From: Pseudorhodoferax sp. Leaf274
Lineage (GTDB): Bacteria > Pseudomonadota > Gammaproteobacteria > Burkholderiales > Burkholderiaceae_C
Direction of reading: 5' to 3'
DNA length: 64,000 nucleotides
Assembly (NCBI RefSeq): GCF_001422445.1
Contig: NZ_LMNA01000023.1
Coordinates: forward strand, 124,001 to 188,000
Below, one piece after another: positions 22,250 through 57,062 of this stretch; position 1 is the first letter of the stretch, and every line of letters starts with the position of its first letter. Position numbers and translations under genes: made by a program. The notes under the pieces are model-generated. The model worked only from the letters and a program-made list of their open reading frames with translations, made no database searches and had not been told where the DNA came from.

Positions 22250-25200
22250 TCAGTGCCCGCCGCGCAGCGCCGCCGTGCGTTCGGCCAGGCCCTGCCAGGC
22301 CGGCTTGTCCGGCGCATGCCGCTGCCGCAGGTACGCTGCCAGCGTGGCGATCTGGTCGTCCGAGAGGTTGTCGGCAAACCCCGGCATGAATCCGACCTCA
22401 GGCCCCGCGGCCTCGCGCACGCCCTGCAGGATCACGCGCAGCAGGTTGTCCGGCCGGTCGCTGTGCAGCTTGGTCGACAACGCCAGTGGCAGGTTCAGGC
22501 CCAGCAGCCTGGGGCCGTCGCCGTCGTGGTGGCAGGCGCCGCAGGCGTTCTCGAACAGGCGCTGCGCCGGGCCGGGCAGGGCATCCGTGCGCGTGGGCAC
22601 GGGGCGCGTCTGCGCGGCTGGCGCCTGGAACGAGGCGAGGTAGCCCGCCATCGCGCGGATGTCGGCATCGGGCAGCGCGGCCAGTTCACGCACCACGGGC
22701 GCCATCGGCCCGGTGGCCGCCCCGTGCTCGCGGCTGTGGCCATGGCGCAGGTAGGCGTAGAAGCCGTCCGCGGTCCAGGGCACGGGCGCCCTCGACAGGC
22801 CCGTCAGCGCCGGCGCCTCCCAGCCGTCGATCAGCGCGCCGGACAAAAAGGCCGTGCCGCCGCGCTCGGCCCCGAGCGCATCGCGTGGCGTGTGGCAGGC
22901 GCCGCAGTGGCCCACGCCGTTGACGAGGTAGGCGCCGCGGTTCCATTCCAGTGTCTGTGTCGGATCGGGCTTCCAGGCGCCCGCATCCAGGTTCAGCGCA
23001 TTCCAGCCCGCCAGCAGCGGCCGCAGCCCGAACGGGAAGGGCAGCTGCGTGCCGGGCGGCTGGTGGGCCACGGCCGGCTGGACCATCAGGTAGGCGTACA
23101 CGGCCGTCAGGTCTTCGTCCGTCATCTTCGTGAAGGCGGTGTACGGGAAGGCCGGGTACAGGTGGCGCCCATCGCGCGAGATGCCTTCGCGCATGGCGCG
23201 CTGGAACGCGGCCAGCGACCAGTTGCCGATGCCGGTGGCCGGATCGGGCGTGAGGTTGGTGGTGTAGACGGTGCCGAAGGGCGTGTCCATCGCGCGCCCG
23301 CCGGTGTTGGGCTGGCCGCCCGGTGCGGTGTGGCAGACCACGCAATCGCCGGCCGCGGCCAGCAGGCGTCCACGTTCGATGGTGGCGGCGCTGTAGGTGT
23401 CGGGCGCCGGGCGCGGCACCGGCGCGATGGCGCTGCGCCAGCCAGCCAGACCCGCGGCAGTGGCGACGCCGCCGACCACGAAGGCCAGGGCCATGGCCCA
23501 GCGCGGCTTGCGGCGTGGTGGCCGGGCACCGGGCGGCAGGCTGGAGGGCGCGCGCAGGGCTTCCTCGGCCTGCGGCACGGGGTCGGGCGCCGGTGGCGGC
23601 AGCTGGCCCTGCTGCAGCGCCGCGCGCACGACTTCGGGCGTGAACGGCGGCTCGCGCAGCCGCACGCCGGTGGCATCGAAGATCGCGTTGGCGATGGCGG
23701 CCGTGCCCGGCACCGAGGCCGACTCGCCCGCGCCCAGCGGCGCCTCGCCGGGGCGAGGCATCAGCATCACCTCCACCACCGGCACCTCGCGGAACGACAG
23801 CAGCGGGTAGCTGCCCCATTCGCGGTTCAGCGTGACGCCGGTCGCGGGCTCGACCTGCACGCGCTCCTTCAGCGCGCGGCTGGTGGTCTGCAGCACGTTG
23901 CCGTGCACCTGGTGCTGCACGCCGGCCGGGTTGACCATGAGGCCGGCGTCGTGGCCCACGACGACGCGGCGCACGTGCACCTCGCCCGTGCGCCGGTTGA
24001 CCTCCACGTCGGCCACCCAGGCGGCCCAGGCGGCGCCGAAGCCCGGAAACTTGCTGTGGATGTAGCGCGCGTACGCGAAGCCCTGGCCCTTGAGGATCTC
24101 GCCGTTCGCCGGGTCGGCAGGCTGCGACTGCGGCGCCGTGTGCGGCTTCCAGCCCGCCTTGGCAGCGGTGGCGCGTACCAGCTCGGCCGCGCGCGCATCG
24201 GGCAGGTGGCGCAGCCGGTAATCCACCGGGTCGACGCCCGCGGCCGTGGCCAGCTCGTCGATGTAGGACTCGTGCGCGAAGGAATTGGGCAGCGCGGACA
24301 CGCCACGCAGCCAGGAGGCGCGCAGCATGGGTGCCATGTCGTTGGCGGCCACCCGCAGGTTGGCGTAGGCGTAGGGCGGCACGGCCGTGCGGTCGCCCAT
24401 CTCGAAGGCCTTGGCCACAGGCTCGACCGTGCGCGTGAGCAGCAAGGCGAGCGTGGGCGCGCCGTTGCTGGGGTAGGAGGTCTGGAAGTCGTAGGCGGCA
24501 GGCGTGCCGTCGGCGTTGAGACCGCCGTCGACCTGCATGAGCTGCGCCGCGCCCTTGGGCTCCCAGGCACTTTCCTGCGCGCGCGTGAGCTGCACGCGCA
24601 CAGGCCGGCCGACCGCGCGCGACAGCAGCAGCGCATCGGCCGCCACGTCGTCGGCGCCGTTGCGGCCATAGCAGCCGGCCGCCTCCATGCGCACGAGGTC
24701 GATGCGCGCATCGGCCACGCCGGCCAGCAGCGCCAGGTCGGCGCGCAGCACATGCGGGTTCTGCGTGCCGGCCCAGACGGTGGCGACCGGGCCGCCTGCG
24801 GCCTCGCCATGCCAGTGCGCGAGCGCACAGGACGGGCCGATGGACGCGTGCAGCTGGTAGGGCCAGACGTAGCTGCGCGGCATGTGCGCGGCAGCGCCCG
24901 CGATGGCCTGGTCGACCTGGCCCTGCTCCAGCAGCAGCCGGCGCGTGGATGGGTTGGCGCGCAGCGCCTGCTCGGCCTGGTCCACGCCGGCCATGCCGGG
25001 CCAGGGCTTCCAGCGCACGGCGAGTGCGGCCATTGCGGCTTCGGCCATCTCCTCGCGTTCGGCCACGATGCCGACGAAGTCGCGCTGTACCACCACGGCG
25101 ACCACGCCAGGGATGTGGGCGATGGAGTGTTCGTCCACGCCCTCGAGCGTGTTGCCGACGAACTCGCCCGCGTCCAGCCCCGCATAGGGCGGGCGCACGA

Positions 25201-25792
25201 CGCGGCCGTGCAGCATGCCGGGCACGCGCATGTCGTGCACGAACACCAGCTCGCCATGCACCTTGGCCGGGATGTCCACGCGCGGCAGAGACTGGCCGAC
25301 CAGCCGGTAGTTCTCCACCGGCTTGGTCTGTGCGCCAGCGTCCAGCAGCAGTTCGATGCGCCGGCCCGCCAGCGCCGCGGCCCCGCCGTTCGCGCGCAGC
25401 CAGGCCTGCGCCTGCGCCGCGGCCTGGCGCAGTGGCTGGGCGTGGATCTGGATCGAGGCACTCGCGATGGTCGCGCCCTGGTTGGGCGCGCTGGCTGTGC
25501 TGCCCATGGCCATGGTCACCTGCGCCGGCGCCAGGTCCAGCTCTTCGGCCACGATCTGCGTGAGGGCGGTGCGCAGGCCGGTGCCCAGGTCCACATGGCC
25601 CGCGAAGCCGGTGGCGCTGCCGTCGTCCCAGCAGGCCAGCAGCACTTCGGGGCCTTCGGCCGGGTTGCCGGCCACGGCCGGCGGCTGGCCGGGGGCGGGC
25701 GGCGGTGGCGGCGGCACCTCGCGCAGCACCAGCAGCACGCCCTCGGCCAGGCGCACCGCCGCACGCGACAGGCCTGCCTGCGCGGCACGCAT
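22250..25792 (-). CDS. nicB: Nicotinate hydroxylase large subunit: molybdopterin domain fused to tri-heme cytochrome c
   Basis: 1180 residues, close to the ~1187 of Pseudomonas putida NicB. Residues ~1–750 are a molybdenum hydroxylase large subunit of the isoquinoline oxidoreductase type (WAGTQNPHVLRADLALL, MEAAGCYGRNGADDVAADA, GTAAIANAIFDATGVRLREPPFTPE). At ~775–800 the positively charged PPRRKPRW precedes one membrane helix. The C-terminal part holds three heme c sites, CVVCH (Cys817), CGACH (Cys963) and CGACH (Cys1084). No Tat or Sec signal is present at the N-terminus, so I infer a cytoplasmic Mo domain, one crossing, and periplasmic hemes delivering electrons to the respiratory chain. 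Reaction inferred: nicotinate + H2O to 6-hydroxynicotinate. Context (nicotinamidase, 6-hydroxynicotinate reductase, enamidase) supports this over isoquinoline or aldehyde. Start overlaps the small-subunit stop by one base (TGATG). Confidence 0.85.
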   Translation of the reverse strand: MRAAQAGLSRAAVRLAEGVLLVLREVPPPPPPAPGQPPAVAGNPAEGPEVLLACWDDGSATGFAGHVDLGTGLRTALTQIVAEELDLAPAQVTMAMGSTASAPNQGATIASASIQIHAQPLRQAAAQAQAWLRANGGAAALAGRRIELLLDAGAQTKPVENYRLVGQSLPRVDIPAKVHGELVFVHDMRVPGMLHGRVVRPPYAGLDAGEFVGNTLEGVDEHSIAHIPGVVAVVVQRDFVGIVAEREEMAEAAMAALAVRWKPWPGMAGVDQAEQALRANPSTRRLLLEQGQVDQAIAGAAAHMPRSYVWPYQLHASIGPSCALAHWHGEAAGGPVATVWAGTQNPHVLRADLALLAGVADARIDLVRMEAAGCYGRNGADDVAADALLLSRAVGRPVRVQLTRAQESAWEPKGAAQLMQVDGGLNADGTPAAYDFQTSYPSNGAPTLALLLTRTVEPVAKAFEMGDRTAVPPYAYANLRVAANDMAPMLRASWLRGVSALPNSFAHESYIDELATAAGVDPVDYRLRHLPDARAAELVRATAAKAGWKPHTAPQSQPADPANGEILKGQGFAYARYIHSKFPGFGAAWAAWVADVEVNRRTGEVHVRRVVVGHDAGLMVNPAGVQHQVHGNVLQTTSRALKERVQVEPATGVTLNREWGSYPLLSFREVPVVEVMLMPRPGEAPLGAGESASVPGTAAIANAIFDATGVRLREPPFTPEVVRAALQQGQLPPPAPDPVPQAEEALRAPSSLPPGARPPRRKPRWAMALAFVVGGVATAAGLAGWRSAIAPVPRPAPDTYSAATIERGRLLAAAGDCVVCHTAPGGQPNTGGRAMDTPFGTVYTTNLTPDPATGIGNWSLAAFQRAMREGISRDGRHLYPAFPYTAFTKMTDEDLTAVYAYLMVQPAVAHQPPGTQLPFPFGLRPLLAGWNALNLDAGAWKPDPTQTLEWNRGAYLVNGVGHCGACHTPRDALGAERGGTAFLSGALIDGWEAPALTGLSRAPVPWTADGFYAYLRHGHSREHGAATGPMAPVVRELAALPDADIRAMAGYLASFQAPAAQTRPVPTRTDALPGPAQRLFENACGACHHDGDGPRLLGLNLPLALSTKLHSDRPDNLLRVILQGVREAAGPEVGFMPGFADNLSDDQIATLAAYLRQRHAPDKPAWQGLAERTAALRGGH

Positions 25793-26289
25793 CAATGGCG
25801 GCCCTCTGCGCCAGCCGTGCACAGCCGGGCCGCGCGCTGCACGGCGTCCAGGATCTCCAGGTGCGTGCCGCAGCGGCACAGGTTGTGCGAAAGCTCGGCG
25901 CGCACCTGCGCGTCCGTGGGGTGCGGCACGCGCGCGAGCAGCGCCACGGTGGCCATGACCATGCCGTTCAGGCAGTAGCCGCACTGCGCGGCCTGGGCGT
26001 CGATGAAGGCCTGCTGCACCGGGTGCGGCGCCTCGCGCGTGCCCAGGCCTTCCAGCGTGGTGATGTGGCGGCCCGCCACGCCGTGCGCCGGCACCACGCA
26101 GCTGCGTGCGGCCACGCCGTCGACCAGCACCGTGCAGCTGCCGCACTGGCCCAGGCCGCAGCCGTACTTGGGGCCGTTCAAGCCGCAGTCGTTGCGCAGC
26201 AGGTGCAGCAGCGAGGTCTCGCGCGGCGTGTCGAACTGCCGCGTGCTGCCGTTGATGTGCAGCGCGAAGGTGCCGTGGCCTGCCGTCAC
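25792..26289 (-). CDS. nicA: Nicotinate hydroxylase small subunit, 2 x [2Fe-2S]
   Basis: 165 residues from a GTG at 26289 that overlaps the nicotinamidase stop (GTGA). The plant-type cluster is bound by NGPKYGCGLGQCGSCTVLVDG plus the upstream Cys, and the second cluster by AAQCGYCLNGM and SHNLCRCGTH, exactly the layout of molybdenum-hydroxylase iron-sulfur subunits. It relays electrons from the molybdopterin centre of the large subunit to its hemes. No FAD subunit gene is present, consistent with the NicAB/Ior type that uses cytochromes instead of NAD. Confidence 0.9.
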   Translation of the reverse strand: MTAGHGTFALHINGSTRQFDTPRETSLLHLLRNDCGLNGPKYGCGLGQCGSCTVLVDGVAARSCVVPAHGVAGRHITTLEGLGTREAPHPVQQAFIDAQAAQCGYCLNGMVMATVALLARVPHPTDAQVRAELSHNLCRCGTHLEILDAVQRAARLCTAGAEGRH

Positions 26290-27005
26290 GCGCCTTCCAC
26301 GTCGGCCGACTGGATGCGCTTGACGCCCTTGGCCGCCATCTGCTTCCAGGCCGCAGCCAGCGAGCCGTTGAGGTCGATGGCGCGCGTGGCGTCTTCGACC
26401 ACGTAGGCTTCGAAACCGGCGGCGCGCGCGTCCAGCGCCGTCCAGGCCACGCAGAAATCGGTCGCCAGGCCCGTGATGTAGACGGTCTTGATGCCGCGCG
26501 CCTTCAGGTAGCCGGCCAGGCCCGTCAAGGTCTTGCGGTCGGCTTCCTGGAAGGCGGAGTAGCTGTCCACGCCCTTGTTGTAGCCCTTGCGGATGATCAG
26601 CTGCGTGGTGGGCAGTTTCAGGTCCTTGTGCAGCGCGGCGTCGTCGGTGCCCTGCACGCAGTGGTCGGGCCACAGCACCTGGTTGCCGTAGTTGAGCTTG
26701 ATGCTGTCGAAGGGCTTCTTGCCGCCGTGCGCGCTCGCGAACGAGGCATGGCCCTGGGTGTGCCAGTCCTGCGTGACCACGATGTTCTGGAAGGCCAGCG
26801 AGAGCTTGTTGATGACCGGCACCACCTCGGCCCCGCCCTTGACGGGCAGCGTGCCGCCGTCGATGAAGCAGTTCTGCACGTCCACCACGATCAGCGCCGC
26901 ATTGGCGCCGGGCTTGCGCTTGGCCGCGGCGAACAGCGGCGGCGCCAGGGCCACCAGGCCCAGGGCGGCGGCAGAGTGGAGAAGCGTTCGGCGTTGCATG
27001 GTCAT
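26286..27005 (-). CDS. pncA: Nicotinamidase with Tat signal peptide (periplasmic)
   Basis: 239 residues. The isochorismatase-fold catalytic triad is visible: Asp42 in VVDVQNCFIDGG, Lys140 in RKGYNKGVDSYSAF and Cys185 in ITGLATDFCVAW; the metal site of true nicotinamidases is present as D80-W-H82-x3-H86 and WPDHCVQGT. Ahead of it is MTMQRRTLLHSAAALGLVALAPPLFAAA (first 28 residues), a twin-arginine signal with a hydrophobic core and Ala-x-Ala-type end. It would therefore hydrolyse nicotinamide to nicotinate and ammonia outside the cytoplasm. Housekeeping nicotinamidases are cytoplasmic, so export plus the position beside nicA argues for a catabolic role. An AGGAG lies seven bases before the ATG. 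Confidence 0.9.
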   Translation of the reverse strand: MTMQRRTLLHSAAALGLVALAPPLFAAAKRKPGANAALIVVDVQNCFIDGGTLPVKGGAEVVPVINKLSLAFQNIVVTQDWHTQGHASFASAHGGKKPFDSIKLNYGNQVLWPDHCVQGTDDAALHKDLKLPTTQLIIRKGYNKGVDSYSAFQEADRKTLTGLAGYLKARGIKTVYITGLATDFCVAWTALDARAAGFEAYVVEDATRAIDLNGSLAAAWKQMAAKGVKRIQSADVEGA

Positions 27006-27030: not shown

Positions 27031-27771
27031 TCACACGCTGAGGTAGGCGCGCCGCACGTCCTCGCTGGCGGCCAGCGCGGCCATCGTGCCCTCGAAGCGG
27101 ATCTGGCCCTTCTCCAGCACGTAGGCGCGGTCGCTCACGAGTTCGGCGAAATGCATGTTCTGCTCGGACAGCAGGATGGACACGCCCTGGCTCTTGAGCT
27201 GCAGGATCATGTGCGCCATCTGCTCGACGATGACGGGCGCCACGCCTTCGGAGGGCTCGTCCAGCAGCACCAGGTAGGGGTTGCCCATCAGGGTGCGCGC
27301 CACCGTCAGCATCTGCTGCTCGCCGCCGCTCATGCGGCCGCCCGGGCGGTTGGGCATCTCGCCCAGGTTGGGGAACAGCTTGAACAGCTTCTCGGGCGTC
27401 CACAGTGGCGCGTCGGCGCCATCGGCAGCACCGGGGACGGGAGGGCGCGCCGGCTGCCGGCCGACTTCCAGGTTCTCCATCACCGTGAGGTCGGTGAACA
27501 CGCGCCGGTCTTCCGGCACGAAGCCCAGGCCCAGGCGCGCCGCATGGTGCGGTTCGGTGCGCGAGATGTCGTGGTCCAGGAAGCGGATGCTGCCCGCGCG
27601 CTTGGCCAGCATGCCCATGATGGCCTTGAGCGTGGTGGACTTGCCGGCGCCGTTGCGGCCCATCAGCGCCACCACTTCGCCGCGGCGCACGCTGAGGTCG
27701 ACGTCGTACAGGATCTGGGCGGCGCCGTACCAGGCGCGCAGGGCCTTGGTCTCGAGCAGGGTGGTCGTCAT
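27031..27771 (-). CDS. livF: ABC transporter ATPase, LivF type
   Basis: 246 residues. Walker A in LMGRNGAGKSTTLKAIMG, signature RMSGGEQQMLTVARTLM and Walker B YLVLLDEPSEGVAP, with the E-P-S-E-G variation typical of LivF. An insertion (RQPARPPVPGAADGADAP) between the Q-loop and signature is rich in Pro/Ala. It overlaps livG by four bases (ATGA). It powers the branched-chain-type importer of this operon; by context the substrate is probably nicotinate, nicotinamide or a ring derivative rather than leucine. Confidence 0.92.
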   Translation of the reverse strand: MTTTLLETKALRAWYGAAQILYDVDLSVRRGEVVALMGRNGAGKSTTLKAIMGMLAKRAGSIRFLDHDISRTEPHHAARLGLGFVPEDRRVFTDLTVMENLEVGRQPARPPVPGAADGADAPLWTPEKLFKLFPNLGEMPNRPGGRMSGGEQQMLTVARTLMGNPYLVLLDEPSEGVAPVIVEQMAHMILQLKSQGVSILLSEQNMHFAELVSDRAYVLEKGQIRFEGTMAALAASEDVRRAYLSV

Positions 27772-28538
27772 GCGTGGGCTTTCTCGAAGGTCTTGCCGCT
27801 GCCGAAGTAGACCTCCTGCACCTTGGGATGGTCGCGGATCTCCAGCGGCTTGCCCTGGGCGATCAGCCGGCCTCTGGCCAGCACGATCATGCGGTCGGCA
27901 TAGGCGAACACCACGTCCATGCTGTGCTCGGTGAACAGCACGGCCATGCCGCGGTCGATCACGAGCTGCTTGGTCAGCGCCATCAGGTCGTTGCGCTCCT
28001 TGGGCGCCATGCCGGCCGTGGGCTCGTCCATCAGCAAGAGCTTGGGGTCGTTGGCCATGGCGATGGCCAGCTCCACGCGCTTGACGTCGCCGTAGGCCAG
28101 CTCGCTGCACGGCCGGTCGGCCTGGGCGCGCATGCCGACCTGCTCCAGCAGCGCCAGCGCGTCCGCACGCCGGTGGTCGGCAGCGCGGCGCCACATCGCG
28201 AACAGCTTGCCGTCGTGCGAGAGCAGCGCCATCTGCACGTTCTCCACCACGGTCAGCGAGGCGAAGGTCTCGGCGATCTGGAACGTGCGGCCCACGCCCA
28301 GGCGCCAGATGGCGCGCGGCTTCATGCCCACGAGTTCATAGCCGCCCAGGCGGATCGAACCCTGGTCGGCACGCAACTGGCCATTGACCATGTTGAAGGT
28401 GGTGGTCTTGCCGGCGCCATTCGGGCCGATCAGGGCCAGCAACTCGCCCGTGTGCAGCGTGAAGTCGATACCGTCCACGGCCTTGACGCCGCCGAAGGAT
28501 TTGCCCAGGCCCTGGACCTGGAGAAGCGCCTCGCTCAT
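27768..28538 (-). CDS. livG: ABC transporter ATPase, LivG type
   Basis: 256 residues. Walker A LIGPNGAGKTTTFNMVNG, LivG-typical GVGRTFQIAETFASLTVVENV, signature region LAYGDVKRVELAIAMA and Walker B LLLMDEPTAGMAPKERND, then FTEHSMDVVFAYADRMIVL. The signature reads L-A-Y-G-D rather than L-S-G-G-Q, as is usual for LivG. Coupled by ATGA overlaps to both the fused permease upstream and livF downstream. Confidence 0.92.
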   Translation of the reverse strand: MSEALLQVQGLGKSFGGVKAVDGIDFTLHTGELLALIGPNGAGKTTTFNMVNGQLRADQGSIRLGGYELVGMKPRAIWRLGVGRTFQIAETFASLTVVENVQMALLSHDGKLFAMWRRAADHRRADALALLEQVGMRAQADRPCSELAYGDVKRVELAIAMANDPKLLLMDEPTAGMAPKERNDLMALTKQLVIDRGMAVLFTEHSMDVVFAYADRMIVLARGRLIAQGKPLEIRDHPKVQEVYFGSGKTFEKAHA

Positions 28539-30418
28539 GGTGTGGTCTTGCGGTCGAAAAGCTGTTTGGCGAAGCCGGCGATGCCCTGCGGGAACAGCAG
28601 CACCAGCAGCAAGATGGTGCCGCCCAGCACGGCACGCCAGTAGTCGGTGTTGCGCGCCACGGTGTCGTGCAGCCAGGTGAAGGTGACGGCACCCACCACG
28701 GGCCCGGCCAGCGTCTGGATGCCGCCCAGCAGCACCATGACGAGGCCGTCGATCGACTTCGTCACGTTGAGCGACTCGGGCGAGATGCTGCCCTTGGAGA
28801 ACGCGAACAGCGCGCCGGCCAGGCCGCCGACCGCACCGGCCACGATGAAGGCCACCCACTGCATGCGCTTGACGTCGATGCCGATGGCGTCGGCCCGCAG
28901 CATGGAGTCGCGGCCCGCGCGCAGCGCGTAGCCGAACGGCGAGAACAGCACGCGGCGCAGCCACCAGATCCCCAGCCCCACCAGGGCGAGCGTGAGCCAG
29001 TAGTACATGCGCTTGTCGGCGAACAGGGCCGAGGGCCACACGCCCGTCAGCCCGTTGCTGCCGCCCGTGAAGCTGTCCCACTGGTAGGTGATGGCCCAGG
29101 TGATCTGCGCGAAGGCCAGCGTCAGCATGGCCAGGTAGACACCGGACAGTCGCACCGCGAACCAGCCGTACACGAAGGCACCGACGGCGGCCACTAGCGG
29201 TGCCACCAGCAACGCCAGCTCCATCGGCATGCCCACGCTGCGCACCAGCAGCGCGGCGCCGTAGGCCCCCAGGCCGAAGTAGGCCGCATGGCCGAACGAG
29301 TGCATGCCCGCCGGCCCCATGATGAAGTGCAGGCTGGTGGCGAACAGCGCGGCGATCAGCAGGTCGATCAGCAGCACCGTGGTGTAGGACGATGCTTCGG
29401 TCAGCAGCGGCACCGCCACCAGCACCAGGCCCAGCAGGGCCGCCACGGCGATGGCCGTGCGGCCGGGCTGGCGCAGCGGTGCCTCGGGCGTGCCCACGTA
29501 GCGGCTCGGCGCCTGCGGCTTGCCCAGCAGTCCCCAGGGCCGCCAGACCAGCACCGCGGCCATGACCAGGAAATCGACCATCAACGTGAGCTTGGAGAAC
29601 GAGACGCTGATGCCGAACACATCCACCACGCCCAGCCAGATGCAGATGGCCTTGAGTTCGGCCACCAGCAGCGCGGCCAGGTAGGCGCCCGGCAGCGACC
29701 CCATGCCGCCGACCACCACGATCACGAAGGCCGCGCCGATGGTGTGCAGGTCCAGCTCCAGCGTGGCCGGCTCGCGCGGCAGTTGCAGCGCGCCGCCCAG
29801 GCCGGCCAGCAGCGCACCGAGTGCGAACACCGCCGTGAACAGCCAGGCCTGGTTCACGCCCAGCGCGCTGACCATCTCGCGGTCCTGCGTGGCGGCGCGC
29901 ACCAGCGTGCCGAAGCGCGTGCGCGTGAGCAGCAGCCAGACCAGGCCCAGCACCACGGGCCCCACGGCGATCAGGAACAGGTCGTAGGAGGGAAACTGAC
30001 GGCCCAGGATCTCGACCGAGCCGCGCAGGCCGCGCGCGCGCGGGCCCAGCAGTTCGTCGGGGCCCCAGAGCCACAGCACGGCGTCCTTGATCACCAGCAC
30101 CAGCGCAAAGGTGGCCAGCAGCTGGAACAGTTCGGGCGCCTTGTAGATGCGCCGCAGCAGCAGCACCTCGACGATGGCGCCCAGCACGCCCACCGCGATG
30201 GCGGCCAGCACCAGCGCGGGCCAGAACCCCAGGCTGCCGCCCAGCCGGTCGACCAGCGTGTAGGCGATGTAGATGCCCACCATGAAGAACGAGCCATGCG
30301 CGAAGTTGACGATGCGCGTGACGCCGAAGATCAGCGACAGCCCTGCCGCGACCAGGAACAACGAGGACGCCGCAGCGAGCCCGTTGAGGAGTTGGACGAT
30401 GAGTCCCGAGAAGCTCAT
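28535..30418 (-). CDS. livHM: Branched-chain-type ABC permease, LivH–LivM fusion
   Basis: 627 residues, about twice a single permease. Residues ~1–290 are LivH-like (LSLIFGVTRIVNFAHGSFFMVG, VVVGGMGSLPGAYLAALLVAE) and ~330–627 LivM-like (FIMGPAGMHSFGHAAYFGLGAYGAAL, LRAGRDSMLRADAIGIDVKRMQWVAF, VMVLLGGIQTLAGPVVGA). The linker LLGKPQAPSRYVGTPEAPLRQPGR joins them. Single-chain LivHM permeases are known in Burkholderiales. It follows the receptor gene after 89 bases. Confidence 0.9.
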   Translation of the reverse strand: MSFSGLIVQLLNGLAAASSLFLVAAGLSLIFGVTRIVNFAHGSFFMVGIYIAYTLVDRLGGSLGFWPALVLAAIAVGVLGAIVEVLLLRRIYKAPELFQLLATFALVLVIKDAVLWLWGPDELLGPRARGLRGSVEILGRQFPSYDLFLIAVGPVVLGLVWLLLTRTRFGTLVRAATQDREMVSALGVNQAWLFTAVFALGALLAGLGGALQLPREPATLELDLHTIGAAFVIVVVGGMGSLPGAYLAALLVAELKAICIWLGVVDVFGISVSFSKLTLMVDFLVMAAVLVWRPWGLLGKPQAPSRYVGTPEAPLRQPGRTAIAVAALLGLVLVAVPLLTEASSYTTVLLIDLLIAALFATSLHFIMGPAGMHSFGHAAYFGLGAYGAALLVRSVGMPMELALLVAPLVAAVGAFVYGWFAVRLSGVYLAMLTLAFAQITWAITYQWDSFTGGSNGLTGVWPSALFADKRMYYWLTLALVGLGIWWLRRVLFSPFGYALRAGRDSMLRADAIGIDVKRMQWVAFIVAGAVGGLAGALFAFSKGSISPESLNVTKSIDGLVMVLLGGIQTLAGPVVGAVTFTWLHDTVARNTDYWRAVLGGTILLLVLLFPQGIAGFAKQLFDRKTTP

Positions 30419-30507: not shown

Positions 30508-31716
30508 TCAGTCCTGCGCGCGCGACTTCTTGACGTCCGCCGCAGCGGGCTGGAAGCGTGCGTCGGCGCCGTCCAGGTAGACGTAGTCCACCATCACGCC
30601 CTTGCCGCCGTCGTTCTTGGTCTTGCCGACGAAGGCGCCCATGGTGGACTGGTGGTCTTCGGCGCGGTAGGTGATCTTGCCGAAGGGGCTGTCCACCTGC
30701 AGGCCCTTGAACGCGGCGACCAGCTTGTCGGACTCGGTGCTGCCGGCCTTGGCGATGCCGGCGGCGGCCGACTTGATCATGCTGTAGCCTACGACCGAGC
30801 CCAGGCGCGGGTAGTCCTTGAACTTGGCCTGGTAGGCCTTCTCGAAGGCGGCGTGCTCGGGCGTCTTGATCGAGTACCAGGGGTAGCCCGTCACGATCCA
30901 GCCGTCGGGCGCCTCGTCCTTGAGCGGGTCCAGGTACTCGGGCTCGCCTGTCAGCACGCTGACCACGGTGCGGTCCTTGAACAGGCCGCGCGTGTTGCCT
31001 TCGCGCACGAACTTGGTCAGGTCGGCGCCGAACAGCACGTTGAAGATCGCGTCGGGCTTGGCATCGGCCAGTGCCTGCGCCACGCTGCCGGCATCGACCT
31101 TGCCCAGCGGCGTGGCCTGCTCGGCGACGAATTCCACGTCCGGTTGCGCGGCCTTGAGCAACTGCTTGAACGCGGCTGTGGCCGACTGGCCGTACTCGTA
31201 GTTGGGGTAGACGATGGCCCAGCGCTTCTTCTTGAGCTTGGCGGCCTCGGGCACCAGCATGGCGGCCTGCATGTAGGTGCCGGGGCGCAGCCGGAAGGTG
31301 TACTGGTTGCCGCCCTGCCAGGTCATCTTGTCGGTGAGCGGCTCGCCGGCCAGGTAGAAGAACTTCTTCTGCTTGGCGAAGTCGGCGAGCGCCAGTCCGG
31401 TGTTCGACAGGAAGGCCCCGGCCAGCAGGTCGACCTTCTCGCGCGAGACCAGCTCCTCGGCCATGCGCACGGTGTCGCCCGGGCTGCCGTTGTCGTCGCG
31501 CGTGATGAGCTCGATCTTCTTGCCGTTGACGCCGCCCTTGGCATTGATCTCCTCCACCGCCAGGTCCATGCCCTTCTTGTAGGGCTCCAGGAAGGCGGGC
31601 TGCGCCTTGTAGCTGTTGATCTCGCCGATCTTGATCACGCCCTGCGCGTGTGCGGGGACCAACGTGGCAAGCGCGAGGACCGAGGCGGCGCTGAACAGGT
31701 GACGCATGGATTTCAT
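30508..31716 (-). CDS. livK: Periplasmic substrate-binding protein, branched-chain amino acid type
   Basis: 402 residues with a Sec signal peptide (MKSMRHLFSAASVLALATLVPAHA, cleavage after AHA). The mature protein starts IKIGEINSYKAQPAFLEPYKKGM and contains RDDNGSPGDTVRMAEELV and VLTGEPEYLDP, the fold of leucine/aromatic-acid-type receptors of the HAAT family. Several relatives bind aromatic carboxylates, which fits a nicotinate role by context only. The ATG at 31716 has a good AGGAG; the open frame continues upstream through the DUF1185 gene and is not used. Confidence 0.88.
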   Translation of the reverse strand: MKSMRHLFSAASVLALATLVPAHAQGVIKIGEINSYKAQPAFLEPYKKGMDLAVEEINAKGGVNGKKIELITRDDNGSPGDTVRMAEELVSREKVDLLAGAFLSNTGLALADFAKQKKFFYLAGEPLTDKMTWQGGNQYTFRLRPGTYMQAAMLVPEAAKLKKKRWAIVYPNYEYGQSATAAFKQLLKAAQPDVEFVAEQATPLGKVDAGSVAQALADAKPDAIFNVLFGADLTKFVREGNTRGLFKDRTVVSVLTGEPEYLDPLKDEAPDGWIVTGYPWYSIKTPEHAAFEKAYQAKFKDYPRLGSVVGYSMIKSAAAGIAKAGSTESDKLVAAFKGLQVDSPFGKITYRAEDHQSTMGAFVGKTKNDGGKGVMVDYVYLDGADARFQPAAADVKKSRAQD

Positions 31717-31780: not shown

Positions 31781-32365
31781 TCAGCGCAGGCCGTCCTTGC
31801 CCTCGATCTCGCTGGCCTGCAGGCCGCCGACGCGCGGCAACGGCCGGCCGCCGGACGTGACCGACACGGCCACGACGATCTCATGGGCGCGTGGCGCATC
31901 GGGCACGCGCGCCTCGATGGCGTCGAAGTGGCTGCGCACGAAGGCGGCGTCCTTGTGGCCCAGCGGCACGTCGATGGCGCAGCCCATGCCGCCGACCTTC
32001 TTGGCCGATGGCACCAGGGCCGCACCCTTCTCGACGGCACGGCGCAGCGGTGCGCCGAGCTTGGGGTGCAGGATGGCGGCCGCGTGTTCCAGTTCGCCGG
32101 CTTCGCCGACGATGGCGGCCTTGCCGTAACCCTCGGCCTCGGCGGGTGCGATGCCCAGCGCCGCCACGCACTTCTCGCCGAGCAGCCCGCCGAGCTCCTC
32201 GCCGATGGCGATCAGCGCGTCGAGGTTTTCTTCGTACCGGCCGGCGAACGGATTGGTGATGACGGCCATCGCGAGTGCGCGGCGCACCGGCGGCGTGACG
32301 GGGCGCCCCATTTCGAGGCGGGTTTCATCGACTTGAACGATCAGTTTGCGGATCTCTGCGGGCAT
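31781..32365 (-). CDS. DUF1185 (so-called amino acid synthesis family) protein
   Basis: 194 residues, soluble, starting MPAEIRKLIVQVDETRLEMGR. Conserved-looking parts are MAVITNPFAGRYEENLDALI, YGKAAIVGEAGELEHAAAILHPKLGAPLR and KVGGMGCAIDVPLGHKDAAFVRSHFDA. I recognise this as DUF1185/PF06684, whose name does not reflect a demonstrated function. It lies between the UPF0280 gene and the ABC receptor of the nicotinate operon. It may act on the ring-opened or dearomatised intermediate, or on a carrier of it; that is speculation from position. Confidence 0.75.
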   Translation of the reverse strand: MPAEIRKLIVQVDETRLEMGRPVTPPVRRALAMAVITNPFAGRYEENLDALIAIGEELGGLLGEKCVAALGIAPAEAEGYGKAAIVGEAGELEHAAAILHPKLGAPLRRAVEKGAALVPSAKKVGGMGCAIDVPLGHKDAAFVRSHFDAIEARVPDAPRAHEIVVAVSVTSGGRPLPRVGGLQASEIEGKDGLR

Positions 32366-32444: not shown

Positions 32445-33317
32445 TTACTGCACCAACTGCAGATCGAGGGCCTCGCCGGTGCTGCGCCAACGGTCCTGGC
32501 AAACCAGCGCAGCATGCCAGATCAGGCCTTGCGCGCGCAAAGCCTGTGCGCGTGCCAGCCCGGCCTGCAGCGCCCGGTCGACCAGCATTGCGGGCAGGGG
32601 CGGCACATCGACCGTGACGAGGCGGTTGCCGAGGTCGCTGTCGTCCTTGACCTGGTCGGCAGGGCGGCGTGCGATGCGCGGGTCTTGCACGTCCACGGCA
32701 TTGGCGATCACGGTGGCGGCGGCGTCGGCCGCAGCCGCATCGCGCGCCAGCACGGTCACGCTGTCGGCGATGCCCATCGAGAAGCTGCGCCCGCGCCAGC
32801 CGCTGGTGGCGACGCCGCGCACGGGCCGGTCGGCCGTGATGGCGAACTGCGCGTCGGTGGTCAGCTTGTGGGCGCTGGCGCCCGGGCGGAAGCGGGCGAG
32901 GTCGGCCCACAGGCCCACGCGCACCTGCTGCCCCGCCGTCAGATGGATGGCGATGTCGCCGCCGTTGTTGACCCAGGCGCGCGCGATGCCTGCGCCGGTG
33001 TAGTGCGCAAGGATCTCCTGGGCCACGGCTCCGGCGACGGCGGCCATCGGCGTGATGAAGCCGCTGCGGTAGGGTGCGCAGGCCTGCCACATGCGGCATG
33101 CCACAGGGCCTTGCACAGGGCAGCCGGCGCCGACCGGTGCACGCAGCAGCGGCAGCTCGGCCACGAGTTCGGCAAGCACCTTCGCGAAACGCAGCCAGGC
33201 CGCGTCGTGCGCCGCCTGCACGGCATCGGCGTCGCCTTCGGCGGCGATCACGAGGTCGATCGGCCCGTGCTGGAAGTGCTGTCGGCCGCTGGGCAGCGTG
33301 CTGCGGCTCGGGCCCAT
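32445..33317 (-). CDS. UPF0280 family protein (ApbE-like fold)
   Basis: 290 residues from the ATG at 33317 (MGPSRSTLPSGRQHFQHGPID), 13 bases after the reductase stop. Family features include FITPMAAVAGAVAQEILAHY, ARAWVNNGGDIAIHL, GVATSGWRGRSFSMGIADSVTVLA and ANAVDVQDPRI, which parallel the flavin/metal-binding segments of ApbE (FAD:protein FMN transferase), to which UPF0280 (COG2122) is distantly related. The E. barkeri 6-hydroxynicotinate reductase carries a covalently bound flavin, so a role in flavin attachment to the neighbouring reductase is an attractive inference. Confidence 0.8.
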   Translation of the reverse strand: MGPSRSTLPSGRQHFQHGPIDLVIAAEGDADAVQAAHDAAWLRFAKVLAELVAELPLLRAPVGAGCPVQGPVACRMWQACAPYRSGFITPMAAVAGAVAQEILAHYTGAGIARAWVNNGGDIAIHLTAGQQVRVGLWADLARFRPGASAHKLTTDAQFAITADRPVRGVATSGWRGRSFSMGIADSVTVLARDAAAADAAATVIANAVDVQDPRIARRPADQVKDDSDLGNRLVTVDVPPLPAMLVDRALQAGLARAQALRAQGLIWHAALVCQDRWRSTGEALDLQLVQ

Positions 33318-33330
33318 GGCGCGGCGGGTG

Positions 33331-34920
33331 TCAGCCCAGCAGCGGTGGCTGCCCGACGGGCCAGCCGTTGCCGGCGGCAGGCGGCAGCATGCGGCGTGCG
33401 CGCGGCGCACCGTCGTTGTGCCAGGCGCCGTGGCGCAGGGTGTCGGCCAGCGAGCGCACCTGTTCCATGTGGCCGCCCAGGCGTTCGTAGTCGGACAGCC
33501 GCATCGTGAACTCCAGCGGCGCCACGATGGCCGGCGTCGGCACGGTGCCGAAGCTGTTGTCGGGCATGCGCATGACATCGACCATCACGGTGATGCCGCC
33601 GCCCGGCCAGACGTAGCCCGGCGCGCCACCCAGCGTCACGTTGACGGCGGACTTCTTGATGGCCTGCGTGAGCAGCACCGGGTTCTCGCTGACACCCGCG
33701 CGCAGGCTGCCGCCGGCGCCGCCCAGGAACAGCACCGTCGTGAGCGAGGGTTCGCAGTTCTCGCCGATGCGCGCGACGACATGCGCGACCTCCTGTGGCA
33801 TGGAGGCGGGCTGCGGCACGAGTTGGTCGTCCAGCACGTACCAGGCCGCGTGCTCGCCTGTGGTGGAGACCATCAGCAGGCGCAGGCCGGGCCAGGCCGC
33901 ATCGGGCTCGCATGCCTCGATGATGGACAGCGGGTCGGCGATGTCGGTGCCGCCCCAGCCCGTGCCGGGGTTGGCCACCTGGAAGTAGCGGCCCGGCGTG
34001 GACTTGCGGCCGCGCACCTTGATGCCGGCCGCGCGCATGCCGAGGCAGCGGCCGGCCTGGTGTTCGGTCAGCACGCCGGTGATGTGGTCGTCGACGACGA
34101 TGACCTCGTCGGCCACGCCGTGGAATTGCCGCGCGAAGATGCCCACCGTGGCCGATCCGCAGCCCACGCGCATGCGCTGCTCCAGCACGCCGTTGACGAT
34201 GGGCGCCTGGCCGGCCTGCACCGTGAGCTGGGCGCCGCCGTCGATGGTCAGCTCCACCGGCTTCTTGTTGCCCAGCAGCTGCATCGCGTCCAGCGTGACG
34301 CGACCCTCCTTCTTGCTGCCGCCGGTCAGGTGGTGCACGCCGCCCAGCGACAGCATCTGCGAGCCATATTCGGCGGTGGTCACGTGGCCGATGACCTCGC
34401 CCTTGCAGCGCACGTTGGCCTGCTCCGGGCCGAGCCAGCGGTCGGTGTCGATCTTGAGCTTGAGGCTGCAGTAGCTGAAGATGCCCTCGGTGACCACGGT
34501 GACCATGTCCACGCCATCGGCCTCGGAGGCGACGATGAAGGGCGCGGGCTTGTAATCGGGGTAGGTGGTGGAGGCGCCGATGCCGGTGACGAAGACCTGG
34601 GGGGCTGGGGCCAGCGGGGCGGTTTCGTCGGTGCCGTTCGCATCGCGTGCCGTGAAGGGGACCAGCGGCTGCTCGGCGTCCACCGTTCTTTGCAGCAGCA
34701 CCACGGGGTCCACGCGCACCAGCACGCCCTCGTCGTTGGCGTAGCGGTCGCAGGCCCCGCTGCGGCCGCGGCCGATCTGGCACAGCACCGGGCAGGCATT
34801 GCACTCGACCTTGTCGCTGGCCATGCGCTCGTTGCGCGGCCGGGCGCGCTCCAGGCCCTGGGGCGACAGCACGTCCGGCACATCGGGCAGGCCGTCGGTC
34901 TTGGTGTGCTCGTTCAGCAT
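33331..34920 (-). CDS. hnr: 6-Hydroxynicotinate reductase
   Basis: 529 residues. A cysteine cluster near the N-terminus, Cys40-x2-Cys43-x3-Cys47-x9-Cys57 (KVECNACPVLCQIG then RSGACDRY), is suited to an iron-sulfur centre, and further cysteines occur at 151, 172, 254, 292, 337 and 389. The sequence agrees with my memory of proteins annotated as 6-hydroxynicotinate reductase after the Eubacterium barkeri enzyme, which has a covalent flavin, one [2Fe-2S] and two [4Fe-4S] clusters and reduces 6-hydroxynicotinate to 1,4,5,6-tetrahydro-6-oxonicotinate. The presence of the enamidase that uses this product nearby strongly supports the call. GCGSATVG (253–260) resembles the Ser-Gly-Ala-Thr flavin-transfer motif but does not match it exactly. 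First gene of the ten-gene operon. Confidence 0.85.
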   Translation of the reverse strand: MLNEHTKTDGLPDVPDVLSPQGLERARPRNERMASDKVECNACPVLCQIGRGRSGACDRYANDEGVLVRVDPVVLLQRTVDAEQPLVPFTARDANGTDETAPLAPAPQVFVTGIGASTTYPDYKPAPFIVASEADGVDMVTVVTEGIFSYCSLKLKIDTDRWLGPEQANVRCKGEVIGHVTTAEYGSQMLSLGGVHHLTGGSKKEGRVTLDAMQLLGNKKPVELTIDGGAQLTVQAGQAPIVNGVLEQRMRVGCGSATVGIFARQFHGVADEVIVVDDHITGVLTEHQAGRCLGMRAAGIKVRGRKSTPGRYFQVANPGTGWGGTDIADPLSIIEACEPDAAWPGLRLLMVSTTGEHAAWYVLDDQLVPQPASMPQEVAHVVARIGENCEPSLTTVLFLGGAGGSLRAGVSENPVLLTQAIKKSAVNVTLGGAPGYVWPGGGITVMVDVMRMPDNSFGTVPTPAIVAPLEFTMRLSDYERLGGHMEQVRSLADTLRHGAWHNDGAPRARRMLPPAAGNGWPVGQPPLLG

Positions 34921-34969
34921 CGTGGGGCTCCGTTGCGGTGCCGCGCCTTGCCGCGGCCACGCGTTTCAT

Positions 34970-35005
34970 GTAGCATTCACTTAACGTGAGTGCGGCTGAT
35001 GCTAC
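34970..35005. promoter_or_regulatory. Nested dyad, candidate operator of the nicotinate locus
   Basis: GTAGCAT at 34970–34976 and ATGCTAC at 34999–35005 form a perfect 7-bp inverted repeat. Inside it TCAC (34977–34980) and GTGA (34986–34989) flank TTAAC. The element lies 50 bases upstream of the reductase start and 133 bases upstream of the divergent ferredoxin reductase, so one protein bound here could control both units. The TetR protein encoded at 35930 is the natural candidate. Confidence 0.55.
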
Positions 35006-35137
35006 TCAGAATCGCCCGGGGCCGCAAGCATCCGAACAGGCAATAGCCATGCCGTTCGCATGCCGCAGACGCCAGCGGCCGCCGCGGCATGTGAAAAAAT
35101 CAGCCGTTTCACCTTTGCTACCCCATAGTCGAACGTC

Positions 35138-35914
35138 ATGAGCGCATTCAACGAAGAGAAGGTCTTGAGCGTCCACCATTGGACCGACCGCTTGTTCAGC
35201 TTCACCACGACGCGCGACCCGTCGTTGCGCTTCTCGAACGGGCACTTCACCATGATCGGGTTGCGTGGCGACAACGGCAAGCCGCTGCTGCGCGCCTACA
35301 GCATCGCCAGCGCCAACTACGAAGACCATCTGGAGTTCCTGTCGATCAAGGTGGCGGATGGCCCGCTGACCTCCAAGCTGCAGCACATCCAGGTCGGCGA
35401 CTCGATCATCGTCGGCCGCAAGCCCACCGGCACGCTGGTGACGGACTACCTGTTGCCCGGCAAGCGCCTGTACCTGTTCGGCACGGGCACCGGCCTCGCA
35501 CCATTCCTGAGCATCGTGCGCGACCCCGACACCTACGACCGCTACGAGCAGGTCATCGTGGTGCACGGCGTGCGCCAGGTCGACGAGCTGGCCTACCACG
35601 ACATGCTGACCGAGCACCTGCCGGCGCACGAGGTGCTGGGCGAACTGGTCAGCAGCAAGCTGCGCTACTACCCGACCGTCACGCGCGAGTCGTACCGCAA
35701 CATGGGCCGCATCACCGACCTGATCGAGAACGGCAAGCTCTGCAACGACCTGGACCTCCCGCAGATCAATGCCGCCGAAGACCGTGTGATGCTGTGCGGC
35801 AGCCCGGCCATGCTGCGCGACCTCAAGGTGCTGCTGGAGCACCGCGGCTTCAAGGAAGGCAACACCACGACGCCGGGCGACTTCGTCGTCGAGCGCGCCT
35901 TCGTCGAACAATAA
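35138..35914 (+). CDS. fpr: Ferredoxin–NADP(+) reductase
   Basis: 258 residues. FAD-binding LLRAYSIASANYEDHLEF, GPLTSKLQHIQVGD, NADP-binding YLFGTGTGLAPFLSIVRD and the C-terminal MLCGSPAMLRDLKVLLEHRG, ending FVVERAFVEQ, match subclass I bacterial FNRs. It would pass electrons from NADPH to a ferredoxin or iron-sulfur protein. Divergent from the iron-sulfur 6-hydroxynicotinate reductase and upstream of the enamidase, it plausibly provides low-potential electrons for ring reduction; no ferredoxin gene is in the cluster itself. Confidence 0.9.
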   Translation: MSAFNEEKVLSVHHWTDRLFSFTTTRDPSLRFSNGHFTMIGLRGDNGKPLLRAYSIASANYEDHLEFLSIKVADGPLTSKLQHIQVGDSIIVGRKPTGTLVTDYLLPGKRLYLFGTGTGLAPFLSIVRDPDTYDRYEQVIVVHGVRQVDELAYHDMLTEHLPAHEVLGELVSSKLRYYPTVTRESYRNMGRITDLIENGKLCNDLDLPQINAAEDRVMLCGSPAMLRDLKVLLEHRGFKEGNTTTPGDFVVERAFVEQ

Positions 35915-35929
35915 GACCGGCGCCCGCCC

Positions 35930-36700
35930 ATGCCCCGGCCCGCGAAGACTGCAGACGGCCAGCGCAAGCCGGGGGTGCGGGAGCAGGCGGTCATCGCCTC
36001 GCGCGCCAACCTGCTGCGCGCGGCCACACGCATCTTCGCCAAGCATGGTTTCGCTGGCGGGCGCGTGGGCCAGATCTCCAAGGCGGCCAAGTCCTACGAC
36101 CGCATGATCTACTACTACTTCGGTAGCAAGGAAGGTCTGTACATCGCTGTCATCGAGGACATCTACCGGCGCATGAACGAGGCCGAGGAAGCCCTGGCGC
36201 TCGACGAGCACCAGCCGGTGGAATCGCTCAAGACCGTGGTGCGCTTCGTTTGCGGCTATTACCGCCGGCATCCCGAGTTCGTCACCCTGCTCAACAACGA
36301 AAACCTGCTGCAGGGGCGCCACATCGCCAAGATGCAGTCGGCGCAGCAGTATTCGTCGCCCGCCATTTCGGTGCTGCAGTTGCTGCTGGCCGCAGGTGCC
36401 GCGCAGGGCGTGTTCCGTGACGACCTGGCCGTGCACGACGTCTACATGATGATTGCCGCGTTGGGCTACTTCCCGCAGTCCAACCGCTTCACGCTGTCCG
36501 AGTTCCTGGGCCAGCGCATCGACGACGCCGCGGCCTCCGCGCGCTGGGAGGCCTTCGTCGTCGATGCCGTGCTGCGCACCGTGATGCGCGAGCCCGTGCC
36601 GCACAACGATTCCCCCAGCCCCCACGGAGAAAACCCCACATGGCAGAAGCCGCCGCCACCGCCGCGTCCGGAAAAGTCGTCATCCGCAACATCGGCCTGA
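35930..36700 (+). CDS. TetR family transcriptional regulator
   Basis: 256 residues. An N-terminal HTH is clear: RANLLRAATRIFAKHGFAGGRVGQISKAAKSYDRMIYYYFGSKEGLYIAV (about residues 25–74). The C-terminal ligand domain (RHPEFVTLLNNENLLQGRHI) is of the TetR_C type found with pyrimidine/RutR-like regulators. Its last ~20 codons overlap the enamidase gene out of frame (36640–36700), and this tail (WQKPPPPPRPEKSSS) is low-complexity. Position in the middle of the plus-strand unit suggests it controls the nicotinate locus, probably as a repressor responding to a pathway compound. Confidence 0.88.
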   Translation: MPRPAKTADGQRKPGVREQAVIASRANLLRAATRIFAKHGFAGGRVGQISKAAKSYDRMIYYYFGSKEGLYIAVIEDIYRRMNEAEEALALDEHQPVESLKTVVRFVCGYYRRHPEFVTLLNNENLLQGRHIAKMQSAQQYSSPAISVLQLLLAAGAAQGVFRDDLAVHDVYMMIAALGYFPQSNRFTLSEFLGQRIDDAAASARWEAFVVDAVLRTVMREPVPHNDSPSPHGENPTWQKPPPPPRPEKSSSATSA

Positions 36701-37839
36701 TGCTGTCGGGCGACATCGACCAGCCCATCCTCGAAGCCGACACCATCGTTGTCCACGACGGTCTCATCACTGCCGTCGGCAAGCTCAAGGACTGCGATGT
36801 CGAAGGTGCCACCACGGTGATCGACGCCAGGCAGACCTGTGTCGCGCCCGGTCTCATCGACAGCCATGTGCATCCGGTGTTCGGCGACTGGACGCCGCGC
36901 CAGAACCAGCTCGGCTGGATCGAGTCCATGCTCAACGGCGGCGTGACCACCATGGTTTCCGCTGGCGAGGTGCACCTGCCGGGCCGGCCCAAGGACATCG
37001 TCGGCCTGAAGGCCCTGGCGATCACCGCGCAGCGCGCCTTCGACAACTTCCGCCCTGGCGGGGTGAAGGTGCTGGCCGGTGCGCCCGTGATCGAGAAGGG
37101 CATGGTCGAGAGCGATTTCAAGGAACTGGCCGCTGCCGGCGTCGGCCTGCTCGGTGAGATCGGCCTGGGCTCGGTCAAGGGCGGCACCGAGGCGGCCACC
37201 ATGGTCAAGTGGGCGCGGGCGGCCGGCATCCAGAGCACCATCCACACGGGCGGCCCGTCGATCCCGGGCTCGGGCCTGATCGACAAGGACGTGGTGCTGG
37301 AGGCCGACGCCGACGTGATCGGCCACATCAACGGCGGCCACACCTCGCTGTCCGAGGCCCATGTCTGCGAACTCTGCGAGAAGTCCAGCCGCGCCATCGA
37401 GATCGTGCACAACGGCAACGAGCGGGTGGCCATCGCCGCCGCGCAGGCCGCGCTGCAGCTCAAGTGCCCGCACCGTGTGATCCTGGGCACGGACGGGCCG
37501 GCCGGCTCGGGGGTGCAGCCGCTGGGCATCCTGCGCATGGTGGCCATGCTGTCCAGCCTGGCGAACATCCCGGCCGAATTGGTGTTCTGTTTCGCGACCG
37601 GCAACACGGCCAAGATCCGCAAGCTCAACTGCGGGCTCATCGAAGTCGGGCGTGCGGCCGACTTCGTGTTCATGGACCGGGCCCAGCACACCGCCGGTCG
37701 CACGCTGCTGGAAAGCGTGCAGCTGGGCGACCTGCCAGGTGTCGGCATGGTCATGATCGATGGGCTCGTGCGCTGCGGGCGCAGCCGCAACACGCCGCCC
37801 GCGACCGAGGTTCCGGTGGTCGTCTCCAGCGCGCACTGA
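36640..37839 (+). CDS. ena: Enamidase (tetrahydro-6-oxonicotinate hydrolase), amidohydrolase superfamily
   Basis: 399 residues. Metal-site pattern of the superfamily: GLIDSHVHP (His76, His78), GEIGLG (Glu173), HTGGPSIPGSG (His202), GHINGGH (His229) and GTDGPAGSG (Asp285). Whole-length agreement with the remembered Eubacterium barkeri enamidase is strong, including VSGDI/LSGDI near residue 23, GVTTMVSAG, HLPGRPKD, GVKVLAGA, PLGILR and the C-terminal SRNTPPA. The E. barkeri enzyme is an Fe-Zn hydrolase that opens 1,4,5,6-tetrahydro-6-oxonicotinate to 2-formylglutarate and ammonia. Start at 36640 follows CACGGAGAAAACCCCAC, a usable Shine-Dalgarno, inside the TetR gene. Confidence 0.9.
   Translation: MAEAAATAASGKVVIRNIGLMLSGDIDQPILEADTIVVHDGLITAVGKLKDCDVEGATTVIDARQTCVAPGLIDSHVHPVFGDWTPRQNQLGWIESMLNGGVTTMVSAGEVHLPGRPKDIVGLKALAITAQRAFDNFRPGGVKVLAGAPVIEKGMVESDFKELAAAGVGLLGEIGLGSVKGGTEAATMVKWARAAGIQSTIHTGGPSIPGSGLIDKDVVLEADADVIGHINGGHTSLSEAHVCELCEKSSRAIEIVHNGNERVAIAAAQAALQLKCPHRVILGTDGPAGSGVQPLGILRMVAMLSSLANIPAELVFCFATGNTAKIRKLNCGLIEVGRAADFVFMDRAQHTAGRTLLESVQLGDLPGVGMVMIDGLVRCGRSRNTPPATEVPVVVSSAH

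Positions 37840-55964: not shown

Positions 55965-57062
<1,098 letters not shown>

Follow-up and report, generated by a model that had tools for sequence, protein, structure and literature searches.

Does Pseudorhodoferax sp. Leaf274 use the reductive route for nicotinamide and nicotinate, in which the aromatic ring of 6-hydroxynicotinate is reduced and then opened by an enamidase? The genes that raise this question lie in a stretch of 64,000 nucleotides (the window; C23:124001-188000 in a genome of 6.7 Mb and 30 contigs). We conclude that the locus very probably serves reductive catabolism of nicotinamide and nicotinate, with a probability of roughly 0.88. Profile searches and codon-position composition define two divergent gene runs at 22250-37839. 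The leftward run has hnr (6-hydroxynicotinate reductase homologue), UPF0280, AA_synth, the substrate-binding protein, fused permease and two ATPases of an ATP-binding cassette (ABC) importer, nicotinamidase, nicA, and nicB, in that order, and the rightward run has fpr, tetR, and ena. An initial annotation, made from the sequence alone, had named these genes and proposed the reductive route. All of the named genes were present at or near the places it gave, with refined spans, and the proposed route is well supported by the best match of the enamidase, the names of the Hnr orthologues, and the lack of close NicC and NicE relatives, each described below.

The predicted enamidase closely resembles the enamidase of Eubacterium barkeri. 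Six PDB sequences were matched, with the E. barkeri enzyme (2VUN) at E 1.4e-106 and the next at 1.2e-5. The two proteins are identical at 174 of 380 aligned residues (46%). Residues H76, H78, E173, H202, H229, and D285 align with H67, H69, E164, H193, H220, and D276 of 2VUN, which we take to be the metal ligands, so all six of the expected metal-site residues noted in the initial annotation fall at the matching positions.

The assignment of Hnr comes from its orthologues. Hnr had no Pfam or NCBIfam match above cut-off, and a profile of it matched only one solved structure, an unrelated one at E 0.44. With tblastn we found 26 plasmid records at 59-74% identity, 17 of them named 6-hydroxynicotinate reductase or hnr. 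These names, together with the description in the available text of PMC3511419, in which the Hnr of strain SG-6C shares 42% identity with the E. barkeri enzyme, point to a 6-hydroxynicotinate reductase. Aligned rows were drawn from 120 loci plus the window wherever our open reading frame (ORF) rule yielded one, giving 118 rows for Hnr and 110 for UPF0280. The N-terminal cysteine motif of Hnr and three further cysteines (seven in total) were kept in 117 of 117 rows, a count that leaves out the copy in genome G380 (L154), which is split over two frames. The Hnr of G380 is spread over two different open frames, either a broken gene or a sequence error. A GCGSAT stretch in Hnr was considered as a fixed flavin site and rejected because its threonine varies (alanine in L005 and serine in L008).

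The predicted nicotinate C6 hydroxylase has molybdenum cofactor (MoCo), [2Fe-2S], and haem c domains. NicB carries its three CxxCH haem c motifs C-terminal to the MoCo domains, and the NicAB subunits are 61% and 55% identical to stretches annotated nicA/nicB in locus L006. The closest PDB match to the nicotinamidase is the nicotinamidase 2WT9 (E 3.3e-84). The leader of the nicotinamidase resembles a twin-arginine signal, and therefore nicotinamide may be deamidated outside the cytoplasm. Of 45 related genes, 34 had a loose two-arginine (RR) pattern ahead of the nicotinamidase match, and many from Burkholderiales seem to carry such a leader; the count is rough because the pattern also fits arginine-rich untranslated stretches. 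By eye, several nicotinamidase genes from other classes start without a leader.

We found no orthologue of NicC or NicE of the oxidative route anywhere in the genome (best identities 35% and 24-27%, respectively; NicX, NicD, and NicF were not searched for), and to that extent the statement in the initial annotation that this route has no gene here is borne out. The genome was searched with a plasmid-borne gene that a first NicC query had identified and that precedes nicD; as a NicE-like query we took the next gene but one on that plasmid, annotated as an Asp/Glu racemase. The first NicC query gave 15 matches at 71-89% identity among the plasmid matches listed. Use of the NicC route by this genome was rejected on the basis of its low best identities to both the NicC and the NicE-like query. 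Lacking a close relative of NicC or NicE, this genome most likely relies on the reductive locus to degrade nicotinate.

In the pathway that we propose, nicotinamidase would convert nicotinamide to nicotinate, probably in the periplasm, and nicotinate would enter the cell through the Liv-type ABC importer. NicAB would hydroxylate nicotinate at C6, passing electrons through its haem c domains to the respiratory chain. Hnr, which presumably receives electrons from NADPH through the ferredoxin-NADP reductase encoded next to it, would then reduce 6-hydroxynicotinate to 1,4,5,6-tetrahydro-6-oxonicotinate, and the enamidase would open the ring to give 2-formylglutarate and ammonia. Apart from fpr itself, nothing in the genome matched this ferredoxin reductase at E ≤ 1e-5. 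Later steps would be encoded elsewhere and run through glutarate, by analogy with Azorhizobium. Kitts in 1992 reportedly traced the route to glutarate. A route through glutarate is also cited in PMC3511419.

Loci of this kind are common in Burkholderiales. A contig scan found at least 557 Hnr relatives. The 80 nearest are from Burkholderiales (by record name) or unclassified beta-proteobacteria, with one 'uncultured bacterium'; Paraburkholderia xenovorans LB400 is among them, as are many Variovorax and Acidovorax. Among the matches listed, the closest locus is that of Pseudorhodoferax aquiterrae (L011), in which every gene is 88-98% identical over its best aligned piece. An annotated Comamonadaceae plasmid (L005) has the same gene order without the nicotinamidase and with one extra AA_synth gene. 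A reading of the set as chance ORFs was rejected because the same gene content is found in many of the 80 named loci and the same order in L005. Hnr was found in 4 of 369 genomes sampled from the class and in 32 of 398 sampled from the phylum, both counts including the genome of the window. The reductive nicotinate route thus appears to be common in aerobic Burkholderiales and not just in an anaerobe and rhizobia.

The enzyme that accompanies Hnr for ring opening is not always an enamidase. Enamidase was present in the genome of the window and in 20 of the 34 other Hnr genomes. Of the 35 Hnr genomes, 16 had a HyuB with 66-84% identity to that of Fuscovulum ytuae (the next best match was at 46%). 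No such HyuB was found in the genome of the window; this genome-wide search used HyuB only. The two were largely complementary: 19 genomes had enamidase only, 14 had HyuB only, 2 had both, and 0 had neither. A similar pattern was seen in the 86 loci with at least 8 kb on each side of hnr (49 from the list of the nearest 80, 31 from the samples, and 6 from plasmids), of which 58 had enamidase, 13 had Hyu genes, 15 had neither, and 0 had both. In L006, L007, L008, L009, L010, and others, HyuAB replaces enamidase beside Hnr. HyuAB accompanies NicAB-type genes in L006 and L131, an argument for enamidase and HyuAB opening one and the same product. The complementarity predicts a second, perhaps ATP-dependent, opening of the same reduced ring. 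Among the literature matches listed, none for nicotinate named hydantoinase, and oxoprolinase was named only in work on a fungus.

On the Hnr tree, enamidase and HyuAB have replaced one another between two and four times. There were at least four changes of state on a tree of 40 rows, which omits two HyuB genomes (G518 and G627) that yielded no row under the ORF rule, and also G380, with its two-frame Hnr. The number dropped to two on a tree of 34 rows, which also omits six on long branches (L009, L010, L150, L155, L156, and L157), and this drop weakens the higher count. Both counts leave out the two genomes that carry both enamidase and HyuB. Because four falls to two without the long-branch rows, two exchanges is the safer number.

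Several results weigh against the conclusion that the locus degrades nicotinate reductively. The structural model of Hnr was poor (predicted template modeling score 0.65), and a Foldseek search of the PDB with that model found no solved fold at E ≤ 0.001. In some Hnr clusters, an XDH-type molybdenum hydroxylase replaces NicAB. No later pathway steps were recognized in the locus or its flanks, although they were not sought genome-wide. The initial annotation had described the locus as complete, and that description does not hold: the genes cover only the steps from nicotinamide to 2-formylglutarate, and the flanking genes look unrelated.

Residues 152-187 of Hnr have a weak likeness to the C-terminal barrel of the glycine-cleavage T-protein (GcvT), and the Hnr homologue might then be a hydrolase or transferase of T-protein-like fold, with some other enzyme reducing the ring. 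All nine of the aligned Hnr members in one set (A2) weakly matched the GcvT barrel (best E 4.7e-4), and T-proteins were the first two among the weak Foldseek matches of the Hnr model (E 0.46-0.49). However, the match of the window protein to the barrel was below cut-off and limited to those residues, its invariant cysteine motif resembles that of an iron-sulfur protein, and its orthologues, including the one with 42% identity (PMC3511419), are named after the E. barkeri reductase. We consider a T-protein-like function of Hnr very improbable.

Alternatively, the locus might degrade a related N-heterocycle, such as a substituted nicotinate, with Hnr and enamidase acting on the matching hydroxylated ring. 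The XDH-type hydroxylase and HyuAB found with Hnr elsewhere indicate that certain Hnr relatives may have a different heterocycle as substrate, and the presence of two kinds of molybdenum hydroxylase and two kinds of ring-opening enzyme beside Hnr suggests that the family may have several substrates. In strain SG-6C, 6-chloronicotinate enters the same pathway (PMC3511419). For the window itself, three features argue for nicotinate: the gene run includes a nicotinamidase above its curated cut-off, the metal-site positions of the enamidase match those of E. barkeri, and the genome has no close NicC relative. A different heterocycle seems unlikely to us. We therefore retain reductive nicotinamide and nicotinate catabolism as the function of the locus.

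Hnr and UPF0280 occur together. In the phylum sample, UPF0280 (NF003322) and Hnr were found in the identical 32 of 398 genomes, never one alone, and UPF0280 in 0 of the 366 others. The two genes were on the same contig and about 0.5 kb or less apart in all 32. These genomes are not independent cases because they represent only 16 genera, two of which supply 17. Three further Hnr genomes, from the class sample, also carry UPF0280, in one of them (G190) on a separate contig. Overall, UPF0280 was seen in 118 of 120 Hnr loci; those without it are L038, which ends 145 bases past the hnr match, and L156 of G190. UPF0280 would be a dedicated maturation partner of Hnr. The name UPF0280 was not found among the literature matches listed.

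UPF0280 has a fold related to that of ApbE-type flavin transferases. Its structural model was of high confidence (predicted local distance difference test 93.8). Foldseek matched 2O34, a Desulfovibrio DUF375 protein, at E 4.8e-11, FmnB (7ESC) at 2.3e-5, and further ApbE/Ftp flavin transferases down to E 9.7e-4. Template modeling scores were moderate, with 2O34 at 0.54 (query) and the ApbE entries at about 0.3-0.5. A profile of UPF0280 also found 2O34 (E 6.3e-7), and 55 of 55 UPF0280 members weakly matched Pfam ApbE. The catalytic triad of ApbE is Asp-Ser-His (PMC12052999). UPF0280 shares the overall fold with ApbE and FmnB and, as placed by motif context, the serine (in ATSG) and aspartate (in ADAxAT) of the triad, both invariant in 110 of 110 rows. 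Unlike ApbE, it has no conserved histidine (any histidine in that stretch in 22 of 110 rows) and has an invariant arginine near the missing position. The ApbE target motif D-x-x-[S/T]-G-A-[S/T] was found in 0 of 118 Hnr rows. The last two results, on the histidine and the target motif, speak against UPF0280 being a plain ApbE.

We tentatively propose that Hnr and UPF0280 form a portable dearomatizing module in which UPF0280, with its ApbE fold and changed active site, would be a dedicated flavin transferase or cofactor maturase that recognizes Hnr by a new motif, and around which the metal-dependent enamidase and the hydantoinase/oxoprolinase-type HyuAB would have been exchanged more than once. 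There is a somewhat better, though still short of even, chance that UPF0280 is not a flavin transferase and instead builds or repairs an iron-sulfur or persulfide site of Hnr, a role of the kind suggested for COG2122 alongside DUF39 in making homocysteine. The DUF39-dependent synthesis of homocysteine in Desulfovibrio requires COG2122 together with a NIL/ferredoxin protein, and the available text of PMC5764234 says that the likeness of COG2122 to ApbE stops short of the flavin-binding region. The invariant cysteines of Hnr, the unconserved histidine of UPF0280, and the missing target motif fit such a role. However, 2O34 is the only solved match at E ≤ 0.001 that is not an ApbE/FmnB/Ftp flavin transferase, and the weak ApbE match and the invariant serine and aspartate extend across the UPF0280 members. 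The Hnr of E. barkeri, in work by Alhapel in 2006, is also said to contain covalently bound flavin. If our proposal is true, the way in which Hnr is matured by UPF0280 would link to the DUF39-COG2122 homocysteine system of anaerobes. For UPF0280, whose biochemical function is not settled, the one-to-one association with Hnr and the model provide a concrete partner and a fold.

AA_synth is less tightly associated with Hnr. Its solved relatives, 2QTP and 3BYQ, are both uncharacterized. AA_synth was found in 59 of 398 phylum-sample genomes, 31 of the 32 with Hnr and 28 of the 366 without, and because of the latter we rejected the idea that its link to Hnr matches that of UPF0280 in specificity. 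In two genomes (G475, locus L142, and G545, locus L148), a pair of AA_synth genes is directly beside the enamidase gene on contig C11 and hnr is on a different contig, which hints at a role for AA_synth near ring opening.

An operator-like element precedes hnr. We counted 160 TGTAGY/RCTACA half-sites (8.7 per kb) in 61 gaps between hnr and fpr, including that of the window; the background across all of the loci examined was 0.5 per kb, and 200 mononucleotide shuffles of the gaps had a mean of 15 and a maximum of 26. Part of this recurrence reflects descent because the gaps come from related genomes. The exact inverted repeat TGTAGY-N26-RCTACA was present once each in 57 of 165 loci (two genomes are included twice, as L095/L124 and L103/L132), and 52 of these are among the nearest 80. 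The window has GCTACT in place of the consensus GCTACA. A relaxed pattern matched a single place in the whole genome, that of the element. Two controls weaken this single match: the backwards pattern also matched the genome once per strand, and a match with at most one mismatch turned up in 17 of 100 shuffled windows. Because the single genome match is no better than these controls, the case for an operator rests on recurrence before hnr in relatives. We infer that TetR would control the divergent promoters at this conserved inverted repeat.

The features of the locus are listed in the table. To its right are GreA/GreB-like and RelA/SpoT-like genes, and to its left are a gene resembling UDP-glucose dehydrogenase and one whose product is weakly Wzy_C-like. 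By eye, there is a further leftward run of frames at 55965-62030, whose starts resemble those of a 3-hydroxyisobutyrate-type dehydrogenase and an altronate/galactarate dehydratase-like protein.

Table. Features of the predicted nicotinamide/nicotinate locus, in window positions.
Feature	Position	Strand	Basis
nicB-like large subunit	22250-25792	-	Pfam MoCoBD_1, MoCoBD_2, Cytochrom_C; three CxxCH; ATG at 25792
nicA-like [2Fe-2S] subunit	25792-26289	-	Pfam Fer2, Fer2_2; GTG start
nicotinamidase	26286-27005	-	NF008623, 180.2 bits (cut-off 174); PDB 2WT9
livF, ABC importer ATPase (LivF type)	27031-27771	-	profile searches
livG, ABC importer ATPase (LivG type)	27768-28538	-	profile search; ATG start
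livHM, ABC importer permease (LivH and LivM fused)	28535-30418	-	BPD_transp_2, two stretches
ABC importer substrate-binding protein	30508-31716	-	Peripla_BP_6
AA_synth (PF06684) protein, unknown function	31781-32365	-	240.6 bits
UPF0280 (COG2122), ApbE-like fold, candidate Hnr partner	32445-33317	-	NF003322, 395.3 bits (cut-off 290)
hnr, 6-hydroxynicotinate reductase homologue	33331-34920	-	orthologue names; N-terminal CxxCPxxC-x9-C
operator-like inverted repeat TGTAGC-N26-GCTACT, between hnr and fpr	34969-35006	.	recurrence in relatives
fpr, ferredoxin--NADP reductase type	35138-35914	+	FAD_binding_6/NAD_binding_1; best NCBIfam NF008178, below cut-off
tetR, TetR-family regulator	35930-36700	+	TetR_N, TetR_C_29; best NCBIfam RutR models, below cut-off
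ena, enamidase	36640-37839	+	PDB 2VUN, E 1.4e-106; six metal-site positions

This kind of locus is already known, and such clusters are published (PMC3511419). In the available text of that paper, E. barkeri is given as the organism in which the reductive route was discovered, with a later report from the aerobe Azorhizobium caulinodans, and the cluster is described in four alpha-proteobacteria (Azorhizobium and Bradyrhizobiaceae), with mention of a transporter and two unknown proteins. Azorhizobium and E. barkeri are also named for the reductive route in PMC9304392. The initial annotation had pointed to the coupling of an aerobic hydroxylase to an anaerobe-type branch; this combination is not new, and the aerobic A. 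caulinodans is a precedent for it. It had also pointed out two proteins of unknown function; they are present, as AA_synth and UPF0280, but two unknown proteins are already mentioned in PMC3511419. What is new here is the co-occurrence of Hnr and UPF0280, the complementarity of enamidase and HyuB, and the operator-like element before hnr.

The locus shares parts with three known systems. The NicAB-type hydroxylase of the Pseudomonas putida nic cluster makes 6-hydroxynicotinate; the window shares this type of hydroxylase, in a genome with no close NicC or NicE relative. The first three genes of the reductive route are reportedly present in nine proteobacteria, according to the same work by Alhapel. 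Hnr and enamidase are common to the window and the E. barkeri cluster, with the enamidases 46% identical. The E. barkeri cluster carries later steps, to pyruvate and propionate, whereas none were recognized in the window locus. Its hydroxylase is a four-subunit, selenium-bearing enzyme (PMC10331938, PMC5746545), in contrast to the NicAB with haem c found here. The clusters of Azorhizobium caulinodans, Bradyrhizobium, Rhodopseudomonas, and SG-6C described in the available text of PMC3511419 are alpha-proteobacterial, whereas that of the window is beta-proteobacterial; its run holds nicotinamidase, TetR, and ferredoxin reductase genes, which we list with no contrast to those clusters implied.

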